From positions 1,798,001 to 1,862,000 of the forward strand of contig NZ_CP035119.1 of assembly GCF_004087835.1 (NCBI RefSeq): a stretch of DNA of 64,000 nucleotides, written 5' to 3'. The translations under genes were made by a program, and so were the position numbers. Origin of the DNA: Halorussus pelagicus. GTDB taxonomy: Archaea > Halobacteriota > Halobacteria > Halobacteriales > Haladaptataceae. Position 1 is the first letter of the stretch; each line of letters opens with the position of its first letter. The notes below the pieces were generated by a model. The model worked only from the letters and a program-made list of their open reading frames with translations, was not told the DNA's origin and did not search any database. Of this stretch, positions 4,891-50,050 are shown one piece after another.

Positions 4891-6162
4891 TTACTCTCCG
4901 GACTCCAAGACGGTCAGCGTCGCTCCTGCTTCGCCGTCACTCCGATACGCCGGGAGGTAGAGCGCGTCCCCGACGGCCCCGGCCGCGTACCCCATGTTCC
5001 CCGGTTGCTGGTACGTCCAGCGCGGGTTGCCAGTCGTCGCGTCGAGTGCGTACGTCGTCACGTCGGTCGAAGGCTGTTGGGGGTGTTCGGTCGTTGCCAC
5101 CACCGCACCATTGACCACGACCGGTGTCGTCCGCAGATATCCCTCCTCGATTTCGAACTGCCAGCGCTCGTTGGCGTCCGCCCGCGAGAACGCCCGTAGC
5201 GTCTGCCCGTCGGAGACGAACACCGCGTCCTCGCCCACGGCGAGTTCGCCGAGTCCGAAATCCTCCATCACGCGCCGCCAGCGTCGGTTTCCCGTCGCGG
5301 CGTCGATGGCGTAGACCGCGCGCGTGTCGCACGCGAAGAGCGTATCTCCATCGACGGCGAGACTGTGGAAGTTCTCCCCGTGCTGGTCGGCCCAGATTTC
5401 GTCCCCAGTTTCGACCTCGACCGCCGCGAGGAGCGACGACGTGTCGTCCTCGCTTTCGCTCTGGTCGGCCTCGTCGTAGACGGACCCGACGTACGCCGTC
5501 CCGTCGGCGATGGCTGGCTCCGCGAGGAAGACGTGGCCGTCCTTGGTGTAGCGCCAGCGTTTCTCACCCTGGGTATCGACGGCGACGATGGCCTCCTGTC
5601 GGACGAAACAGAGACGATCGTCCGCGGCCGCAATCGGTTCGTTAATCGACCCGCCGAGATCGAGATGCCACCGCTTCCGGCCGGTCCGAGCGTCGAGCGC
5701 GTACATGGAGTGGTCACCGGCGTCGCCGACGTAGACCGACCCCTCGTAAATCGTCGGCGGACAGCCAGCGAATCCACCGCCGAGCGCGGGCAACGTTGTC
5801 TTCCAGCGCTGTTCTCCGGTCTCTCGGTCGAAGGCGTAGACGCCTCCGGACGCGTAGTCGGAGTCTCCTTTCTCGGGAACGCCACCGCTGACGAACACCG
5901 TGTCGCCGACGATTGCGGGGGGCGTGACACCTGCGGGGAGCGTCGCCTGCCAGCGCACGTCCGGGTTCTCGACGCTGACGTCCACATTCCGACCGAGATG
6001 AGCGGCAGTTCGTCCGAACTGTGCCCATTCCTCGCCGTCTTCACCGGGTAACGGCTCTGTCGGCGACGACTCACGTTTCGGAGAGCGAATGGAGGGGAGA
6101 CCGGACGTACAGCCAGCGAGGCCAGCACTGCCGAAAGTTGCGAGGACATGTCTACGATTCAT
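4891..6162 (-). CDS. PQQ-type beta-propeller lipoprotein
   Basis: A 423-residue exported protein. The N-terminus MNRRHVLATFGSAGLAGC carries a twin-arginine signal and a lipobox cysteine, so it is probably a Tat-exported lipoprotein facing outside. The rest consists of repeated blades with motifs such as VYALDARTGRKRW, YAIDAATGNRRW and TYALDATTGNPRW, typical of the PQQ-like/BamB propeller superfamily. Haloarchaea carry many of these; the role is usually a scaffold, and cofactor binding cannot be inferred. It points away from the replication origin region behind its start. Confidence 0.9.
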   Translation of the reverse strand: MNRRHVLATFGSAGLAGCTSGLPSIRSPKRESSPTEPLPGEDGEEWAQFGRTAAHLGRNVDVSVENPDVRWQATLPAGVTPPAIVGDTVFVSGGVPEKGDSDYASGGVYAFDRETGEQRWKTTLPALGGGFAGCPPTIYEGSVYVGDAGDHSMYALDARTGRKRWHLDLGGSINEPIAAADDRLCFVRQEAIVAVDTQGEKRWRYTKDGHVFLAEPAIADGTAYVGSVYDEADQSESEDDTSSLLAAVEVETGDEIWADQHGENFHSLAVDGDTLFACDTRAVYAIDAATGNRRWRRVMEDFGLGELAVGEDAVFVSDGQTLRAFSRADANERWQFEIEEGYLRTTPVVVNGAVVATTEHPQQPSTDVTTYALDATTGNPRWTYQQPGNMGYAAGAVGDALYLPAYRSDGEAGATLTVLESGE

Positions 6163-6390
6163 ACATTTTTACACGAGTCCGTCCGTATAAACGTTCCTGA
6201 GTGTTGTCGTCGTGCCACAGAAATCGAGGGACGTGACTCGAACGGTTCGGAGAGGGAGAGTAGGTTTCGTCTGTTCCAGTCGTCGGACTAACCGCTCTTC
6301 GGTCGCTGGCGCGGAAGCGTGTGGATAAACCTCGGCGGACGTGGGGGAAACAGAGATAGTGTGTCGGAAGGATAGAGTCTGGAAAGAGCC

Positions 6391-47912: not shown

Positions 47913-48215
47913 TCATCCCCGGATCTCGCTGGCAGTCTGGGCGACGGGCCGGGCGAACAGCGCCAGCACGAGGGCCGTCCAGAGTACGAACAGCACGACC
48001 GCTCCCACGTTATTTACGAACACGCTCGGTTCACCGGTCGGCGTGGGTCCGAACCAGAAAGCACGCGACTCCGCACTCCGGAGGGAATCGACGAGTACGT
48101 ACAGCCAGTAGAGTCCGGGGCCGTCCAGTACGGCGAGGCCGACAACCCATCCAATGAGGTCGCGGTACGGCGCCCATCTAGATTCCCAGTCCTTTTTAAG
48201 AAACTCGTATCCCAT
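47913..48215 (-). CDS. Small membrane protein near the Cys-rich gene
   Basis: A 100-residue protein with two membrane spans (about 20-45 and 68-92) and a short loop. It starts MGYEFLKKDWESRW after a purine-rich stretch (GAGGGGAT). The loop has Pro/Gly/Phe. It lies 304 bp after the cysteine-rich precursor gene on the same strand. It could be an immunity or export partner, but this is inference from position only. Confidence 0.65.
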   Translation of the reverse strand: MGYEFLKKDWESRWAPYRDLIGWVVGLAVLDGPGLYWLYVLVDSLRSAESRAFWFGPTPTGEPSVFVNNVGAVVLFVLWTALVLALFARPVAQTASEIRG

Positions 48216-48519: not shown

Positions 48520-49182
48520 TTAGACACACTCACCAGCACAGTTCAGTCCACACTCACAGCACTGGCAGTCAACGCAGGTGTAACACATCCCACAAGTGCA
48601 ACTCATACATTGGTCGCAGGGTTCGCACCCACAACAGTTACAGCACTCGTACCCACACTCCTGACAACACTTGTTGTTTGCGCAGTCGCCACAGGAGGCC
48701 TCACCGTCGACTGACTGAATCTCGACAGGGCCGTCCTCCTCGTGGGGGTTCAATACGGCGTATCCGTCCTCGACCTCTGGGAGCACGGCCACGGTGAGAA
48801 CGCCCTCCTCAAGGTTTCGGAAGAACCGAACCTCTGGAGTGAGCCTACCGTCGACCGTCTTCGCACCGTAGGTGACGCCCTCACCGTCGTACTCGGGGGC
48901 CGGTTCACGAAGTTCAGTCAACCCGAGAGCATCGACAGACGCCTCCTCAATGAGGCCTGCCTCGGCCACGTCCGCCAAGAGATCAGACTGCTCGTCGAAC
49001 GCTTGTTGGACCGCTCCGATTTCGCGGTAGCCTGCCGTGGCGCGCTCGACCTCCGTTTGCGAGATACCTTCCTCAGCCACCGCACTACTGGAAGCTGCAA
49101 AGGAGGCCATTGCCCCGCCTGCGACGCCCTTGAGGATGTTTCGCCGATTTATGCTGTCATCGCGGTTTGACTCACTAGACAT
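48520..49182 (-). CDS. Tat-exported precursor with 22-cysteine tail
   Basis: A 220-residue protein in three parts. Residues 1-38 are a Tat signal (SINRRNILKGVAGGAMASFA). Residues about 39-160 are an acidic spacer without cysteine. The last 58 residues (from about 162) hold 22 cysteines in short spacings such as NKCCQECGYECCNCCGC and CTCGMCYTC, ending GECV. The layout is that of halocin-type peptide precursors (leader, spacer, disulfide-rich tail), but the tail is far denser in Cys than halocin C8. A metal-binding protein is the alternative. Upstream is an AT-rich operator-like promoter. Confidence 0.8.
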   Translation of the reverse strand: MSSESNRDDSINRRNILKGVAGGAMASFAASSSAVAEEGISQTEVERATAGYREIGAVQQAFDEQSDLLADVAEAGLIEEASVDALGLTELREPAPEYDGEGVTYGAKTVDGRLTPEVRFFRNLEEGVLTVAVLPEVEDGYAVLNPHEEDGPVEIQSVDGEASCGDCANNKCCQECGYECCNCCGCEPCDQCMSCTCGMCYTCVDCQCCECGLNCAGECV

Positions 49183-49218
49183 ACTACATCACATAACTTC
49201 TACAGGATTTATTTAATT

Positions 49219-49234
49219 ATTTCTAACTAGAAAT
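49219..49234. promoter_or_regulatory. Perfect dyad in the Cys-rich gene promoter
   Basis: ATTTCTA AC TAGAAAT forms a perfect 7-bp inverted repeat beside ATTATATAAT (49233-49242), the probable TATA element. The position between TATA and start is right for a repressor site. The ATG is 37 bases away. Confidence 0.5.
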
Positions 49235-49357
49235 TATATAATTCTAATTTTAAATGTTATAAAATAAGTGTCTGTCAGCCAGCGGAAGGTGGCAGTTCAC
49301 GTGGGTACTCGGGGCAGTTGCGGCGTCGGAGTGGCAAAGTCTGTCGTTCCGGGAAGG

Positions 49358-49388: not shown

Positions 49389-49511
49389 ATGTTAATGGAC
49401 GCAACCCCCAAACAGTGCATAGCGACTGAGCCAGTCGGCCGTACTTCGCCGCGGACGACAGCGTCGACGCAGTCGTCACCGGGGGTTCGTCCGGAGGTGG
49501 GCCAGACGTGA
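49389..49511 (+). CDS. Upstream ORF coupled to the ACT gene
   Basis: A 40-codon frame starts ATG TTA ATG, then MDATPKQCIATEPVGRTS and further residues, ending in a TGA that overlaps the GTG start of the ACT gene (GTGA). It has seven Thr and several Ser and Pro. The ATG lies at the predicted transcription start. It may couple or regulate translation of the ACT/hom unit; no homology is recognised. Confidence 0.45.
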   Translation: MLMDATPKQCIATEPVGRTSPRTTASTQSSPGVRPEVGQT

Positions 49512-50050
49512 GTCCATCCGAAGACACCGTGCAACCGAAACCATACACCGTCCGGTTCGAATTGGAGGACGAACCCGGAGAATTACTGCGAGCTCTGGAG
49601 CCGATTGCCGAACGGGGAGGTAACCTGCTGTCGGTCTTCCACGAGCGGGGCAACGTCACTCCGCGAGGGTACATCCCGGTCGAGGTCGATTTGGAGTGTC
49701 CGCCCGACCGCTTCGACGCAATCGTCACGGAACTTCGTGAGACTGGCGTCAACGTGATTCAGGCGGGCGCGGAGCGCTACGGCGAGGAGGTGACGGTTCT
49801 GCTCGTCGGCGATGTCATCGAGAGCGACCTCTCGGAGACGCTCTCGTCCATTGAGTCGAAGGCCGACGCCTCCGTCTCCGACGTGTCGCTGTCCGCGCCG
49901 GGCGGCACCAGCGACGTGTCGAGCGCGCGTCTCCGACTCGCGGCCGAGACCGGTTCGACCGGCGCGGTGGTCGGTGCAGTCCGAGAGGTCGCCGACAGCA
50001 AGGAGTTGCGCGTGGTCGAACCCCTGACGGAACTGGAGGGGTCCGCATGA
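49508..50050 (+). CDS. ACT-domain amino-acid-binding protein
   Basis: A 180-residue protein with an N-terminal ACT domain (PYTVRFELEDEPGELLRALE region, residues about 11-80) and a second regulatory-like domain. ACT domains bind amino acids to control enzymes. Its place before homoserine dehydrogenase suggests it senses a product of the aspartate pathway. It starts at GTG overlapping the upstream ORF stop. Confidence 0.85.
   Translation: MSPSEDTVQPKPYTVRFELEDEPGELLRALEPIAERGGNLLSVFHERGNVTPRGYIPVEVDLECPPDRFDAIVTELRETGVNVIQAGAERYGEEVTVLLVGDVIESDLSETLSSIESKADASVSDVSLSAPGGTSDVSSARLRLAAETGSTGAVVGAVREVADSKELRVVEPLTELEGSA

Follow-up and report, generated by a model that had tools for sequence, protein, structure and literature searches.

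What does a haloarchaeon export when a Tat-dependent precursor ends in a tail that is more than one-third cysteine, and what is such a tail for? The question is raised by a gene of Halorussus pelagicus in the window analyzed here, a stretch of 64,000 nucleotides (GCF_004087835.1; NZ_CP035119.1, positions 1,798,001 to 1,862,000). The features of the locus are collected in Table 1.

Table 1. Features of the precursor locus, in window coordinates
Feature	Position	Strand	Basis or remark
Gene for Cys-rich Tat precursor, 220 aa, ATG start	48520..49182	-	ORF and translation; profile and tblastn searches find intact homologues
Tat signal peptide, residues 1-36, RRNILKG...AVA/EE	49075..49182	-	R13/R14 invariance; sub-threshold signal-model matches
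Cys-free folded propeptide, residues 41-157	48712..49062	-	AlphaFold2; conserved in family
VEIQ, residues 153-156, instance of [VIL]x[TVIPLS]Q	48715..48726	-	Motif enrichment; tentative processing-site lead
Cys-rich tail, residues 164-220, with 22 Cys (enough for 11 disulfides)	48523..48693	-	Translation, Cys count and parity, orthologues with 18 and 20 tail Cys
AT-rich upstream stretch with TATA-like ttaaataaat	49183..49240	-	Sequence; putative promoter, judged by eye
Neighbouring 100-aa membrane protein	47913..48215	-	Independent resident of the fusA-ACT gap, outside the system
ACT gene	49508..50050	+	

The precursor and its setting

Near its N terminus the product carries R13-R14 in the context NRRNILKG, followed by a hydrophobic, Ala-rich segment finishing AVA/EE. 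Both arginines are invariant across 87 aligned family members, and the signal region has sub-threshold matches to the Pfam TAT_signal and NCBIfam formate_TAT models. There are no cysteines before residue 164, and all 22 lie within residues 164-219. A Tat signal, a Cys-free spacer and a Cys-dense tail had been described in the first-pass annotation and are all present; it had also counted 22 cysteines in 58 residues, of which the number is right but the span is 56 residues. This density is far beyond chance: from the first tail Cys to the last, cysteine makes up 39% of the residues, compared with 0.79% among 726 predicted genes flanking related loci, in which the richest 58-residue stretch has 10 Cys and itself comes from another Tat protein. 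The tail is acidic, not cationic, and has few hydrophobic residues. Upstream, ttaaataaat lies approximately 25-34 nt ahead of the ATG. Searches of Pfam, NCBIfam, PHROGs and PADLOC produced only sub-threshold matches and no family that covers the protein. One of these matches, to DUF7776 (PF24989), scored 19.8 bits (E 0.0012) against a cut-off of 27 bits and was found in only 1 of the 87 members; true DUF7776 proteins are unrelated haloarchaeal proteins of 300 aa lacking a Tat signal or Cys tail, and membership was rejected.

The precursor gene lies between fusA and the ACT gene with a small membrane ORF on the same strand, as first annotated, in the order fusA, membrane ORF, precursor, ACT. 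The product of the membrane ORF is apparently a two-helix protein and has no Pfam match. In family genomes in which both were found, fusA and the ACT gene flank the gap; the precursor is present there in two genomes (G000 and G007) and the membrane protein is kept in five genomes of the genus (G000, G003, G015, G012 and G017), the last four of which have no precursor at this place. This synteny rules out the membrane protein as an immunity partner and removes the link between the two genes that had been implied; they are independent accessory genes. No lanthipeptide synthetase lies beside the precursor gene, whose immediate neighbours are fusA, the membrane protein gene and the ACT gene, and, like most family loci, this one is without an ABC transporter or lipoprotein partner.

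A conserved propeptide joined to many tails

A protein search of 99 relatives found, apart from the query's locus, 43 homologous places spread over 19 other genomes, a figure that includes a few chance DUF7776-type matches, and 100 related loci were fetched for comparison. Intact homologues of the reading frame in other genomes reach identities of 41-44%. The closest tails are those from the same place between fusA and the ACT gene in G007 (18 Cys, 41% identity) and in Actinarchaeum halophilum YIM 93972 (20 Cys, 44% identity). We then searched 392 genomes of the order with a family profile comprising signal and propeptide only, from which the tails had been removed. About 60 of these matched at E<=1e-6 (counted from the table); matches near E 1e-4 often span the Tat signal alone and were left out of the counts, and a tally of 119 genomes at E<=0.001 includes such Tat-only matches. 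Matches per genome ranged up to at least 10, these counts being lower bounds with 10 candidates scored in each genome. In a 295-genome sample of the phylum, matches were confined to genomes of the same order. The window genome has six profile matches, one of which (L110) is a halocin C8-like precursor, and hence four or five family members including the window gene; the weakest of these is L111, for which the match is partial.

The two-part architecture is kept in about 106 members found by the propeptide-only profile and is well supported: each member consists of the same Tat signal and folded propeptide joined to a different Cys-rich tail. The loci are patchy, single-gene occurrences across genomes. 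Neither Pfam nor NCBIfam has a family covering the 87-member alignment, and five members tested against PADLOC (anti-phage defence) and PHROGs (phage) had no matches. Some family members may already figure as predicted candidates in a 2019 survey that covered antimicrobial peptides and polymorphic toxins of archaea (doi 10.1128/mBio.00715-19). Viral contigs, phages and most plasmid searches yielded no family matches; a collection of genome contigs yielded none with the single window protein and, with a three-member alignment, Actinarchaeum halophilum alone. The one plasmid match is a member on pHME505 of Haloferax mediterranei ATCC 33500 (E6P09_RS17015, WP_014732775.1; L262 6055-6753, equivalent to NZ_CP039140.1 420717-421415), which has a 12-Cys tail and is annotated as a 'hypothetical protein'.

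The number of cysteines per tail varies from 4 to 22 and is nearly always even. With membership decided without the tail and cysteines counted after the signal, 102 of 106 members had an even number. Among the four odd members, L193 and L197 owe their odd count to a single Cys in the propeptide region, their tails being even; L185 looks degenerate and L117 is a true exception. Of the 88 different Cys-spacing patterns, 86 have an even number (binomial p about 1e-23, kinship between patterns not being modelled), while control genes with at least 6 Cys were divided into 45 even and 31 odd. Related tails also differ by even steps, as seen in the window ortholog group (22, 20 and 18), between L118 and L113 (12 and 10) and in the L127 tandem pair (16 and 12). 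The simplest cause of these even counts is disulfide pairing of all cysteines. The conclusion that the tails are disulfide-bonded mini-proteins rather than metal clusters is therefore well supported by the sequences, which point to, rather than display, the disulfide state.

The tails do not appear to evolve quickly. In comparisons of close orthologues, the tail has a dN/dS well under 1, often lower than that of the propeptide, with no sign of positive selection; the tail is under purifying selection and is thus a constrained, functional part. In some paralogues, in tandem or at the same locus, the propeptide is kept and the tails are no longer similar: the L127 tandem pair has 58% propeptide identity versus 10% non-Cys identity in the tail, and the L198 pair 61% versus 19%. 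Judged from these comparisons, tail turnover seems to follow duplication rather than to reflect fast drift inside a lineage. The motif [VIL]x[TVIPLS]Q occurs just before the tail in 26 of 104 members, as against 5.7 expected by shuffling, with a regular expression picked after viewing the data; VEIQ of the window precursor sits in the last strand predicted by AlphaFold2. As a family cleavage motif it was rejected, being enriched yet not universal and chosen post hoc.

Relationship to halocin C8

The propeptide is predicted by AlphaFold2 with block means of mostly 87-97 pLDDT as three helices (residues 42-52, 55-63 and 66-74) followed by a five-strand beta meander; the tail has no confident model. 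No fold match to the propeptide was found in the PDB at E<=0.001, and a sequence search of the PDB was likewise empty. The nearest known system is halocin C8, whose precursor, ProC8 (PF22862 plus TIGR04449), shares with the family a Tat signal, an N domain of helices then strands, a single gene, haloarchaeal hosts and a C-terminal peptide with an even number of cysteines (10 in halocin C8). In PMC11509114, the C8 precursor is described as Tat exported and split into an immunity peptide and the halocin, and titles cited there speak of one gene serving both production and immunity. The general layout of halocin C8, a Tat-exported precursor with a propeptide and a Cys-containing tail, was found throughout the family. 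C8-like genes are present in the window genome too, where three TIGR04449 proteins lie outside the window (C1:417137, C1:1557201 and C1:2303422). A precursor elsewhere (G034:C4; L207 1501-2352, minus strand) ends in 76 residues that appear identical to halocin C8.

Could the window gene then be a true member of the halocin C8 family whose domains have diverged? The issue is one of ancestry and overlaps with, rather than excludes, the functional reading given below. The AlphaFold model of the C8 precursor propeptide has two helices and then five strands, in the same order as the window propeptide; against the N domain of one halocin C8-like protein, the family profile without its Tat portion reached 17.8 bits, the highest score among 726 controls being 10.0; and of ten C8-like precursors examined, half have a VxxQ-type motif ahead of the tail. 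However, none of the 87 members matches PF22862 (Hac8_like_N) at E<=0.01, neither the window protein nor any of the 87 matches TIGR04449 (halocin_C8_dom), hhalign of the propeptide with PF22862 gives a probability of 3%, and the Tat-less profile scores only 3.8 bits on halocin C8 itself. The tails also have many patterns instead of forming one family. Neither propeptide nor tail has significant sequence homology to halocin C8, and shared descent is, in our view, unlikely. Homology of the N domains is suggestive, not significant; for this reason the window gene is not filed as a halocin C8 member.

Neighbouring genes and possible function

At six family loci, one of them in the window genome (L111), a DrrA-type ATPase and an ABC-2 permease adjoin the precursor; two of the six are codirectional with it, with gaps of 15-16 bp. 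The ATPases match drug-resistance (DrrA) models best and have a lantibiotic-protection model in their top three, and one permease matches the lantibiotic-immunity permease MutG; all are below cut-off. This adjacency exceeds chance only modestly (about 0.015), with counts chosen after seeing the data. At L114, a family member is grouped with two DrrA/ABC-2 pairs and another, unrelated Tat protein. The latter (5422-6264, plus strand) has 10 clustered Cys, an unrelated propeptide and no Pfam or NCBIfam match; possibly it represents another precursor family.

We lean slightly towards reading the window gene as the precursor of a Tat-exported, halocin-like antagonistic peptide, in which the propeptide would hold the disulfide-bonded tail inactive, or give immunity, until proteolysis. 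The new halocin class put forward in the first-pass annotation, alongside a metal-binding exoprotein and a self/non-self factor, has gained from the two-part family, the tail divergence, the ABC neighbours and the C8 layout. The even cysteines and the purifying selection on the tail, as far as sequence comparisons go, and the L114 cluster are also consistent with an antagonist. On the other side stand the lack of significant halocin C8 homology, the modest ABC enrichment, the many loci without an ABC or lipoprotein partner, the acidic tail without an AlphaFold model, and orthologous tails that are conserved instead of fast-evolving.

As an antagonist, the precursor would be exported through Tat as a Cys-free folded propeptide carrying the C-terminal tail, which would fold to a compact mini-protein stabilized by some 11 disulfides. 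Haloarchaea route most of their secreted proteins via Tat, and the signal is therefore weak evidence for the earlier claim that the tail folds in the cytoplasm. An extracellular protease, for which haloarchaeal halolysins are obvious candidates, may free or expose the tail after export. Like halocin C8, the freed tail would act on, and perhaps kill, competing haloarchaea. The propeptide would hold it inactive and, because the window locus is without a dedicated partner gene, may itself supply self-protection, as HalI reportedly does for halocin C8; in some relatives an ABC transporter pair may serve for protection instead or in addition. A precedent for such activation is HmHapP (HFX_0892) and HalH4 of Haloferax mediterranei, a secreted inactive precursor activated outside the cell by the halolysin HlyR4 (PMC12893001). 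The likeness is one of description: HmHapP releases an active N-terminal helical fragment, and PMC12893001 mentions no cysteines or disulfides. The archalans, haloarchaeal lanthipeptides of Halorussus cited in that paper, are also Cys-containing antagonistic peptides; unlike them, the window precursor has a Tat-exported folded propeptide of about 110 aa and no synthetase beside its gene.

It is also conceivable that the tails are surface or signalling peptides, acting in self/non-self recognition or as pheromones or mating factors, and not toxins. Multi-copy, patchy, single-gene loci, diverse tails on a conserved carrier and conservation of tails within orthologues would all suit such a role. 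However, receptor or sensor genes do not recur next to the precursors, and protection-type ABC transporters would be unexpected for a signal; we regard signalling as quite unlikely. A secreted metal-binding protein, with a metallothionein-like tail for sequestering metals or holding metal clusters, is a shade less probable still. Metallothioneins have a similarly high Cys density in a short chain, the window tail is poor in hydrophobic residues, and CxC and CC motifs occur in tails. Unlike metallothioneins, the family has Tat export, a folded propeptide carrier and tails that are not alike, and its almost invariably even cysteines over 88 spacing patterns are not required by metal sites; the tails share no common metal-site spacing, His averages a low 1.6% across the family, and genes for metal transport or resistance are not prominent among the recurrent neighbours. 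Small proteins that are rich in disulfides and variable in sequence are commonly enzyme inhibitors, and HExxH-motif lipoprotein-like proteins adjoin precursors at 8 loci, but knottin-like inhibition of halolysins or other exoenzymes, with the propeptide as folding chaperone, is as improbable as metal binding: the drug/lantibiotic-protection-type ABC-2 pairs at six loci fit a toxic peptide better, and the motif is degenerate in three of the lipoproteins (L149, L167 and L206) and intact in some others. This lipoprotein-like family of ~400 aa is not in Pfam and is represented at L115 (2527-3762, minus strand), L141, L144, L149, L167, L168 and L206.

If the antagonist reading extends to the whole family, its members may constitute a new, widespread class of haloarchaeal antagonistic peptides, in which one conserved Tat propeptide would be carrier and immunity module for dozens of disulfide-knotted tails. 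We hold this broader proposal only tentatively, at somewhat less than even chance; if true, it would describe a modular toxin repertoire comparable to the polymorphic toxins, at peptide scale. To our knowledge, only a few halocins are known at the sequence level. The family is a potentially large source of archaeal disulfide mini-proteins, in which as many as 22 Cys are packed into 56 residues, and would raise the concrete question of the means by which an archaeon makes some 11 disulfides in a protein exported through Tat. As Haloferax mediterranei carries an unstudied member, WP_014732775.1, the antagonist idea is testable at once. An mBio 2026 study reports that further halolysin-activated precursors of this species remain unidentified (PMC12893001), and WP_014732775.1 is a candidate for one of them.
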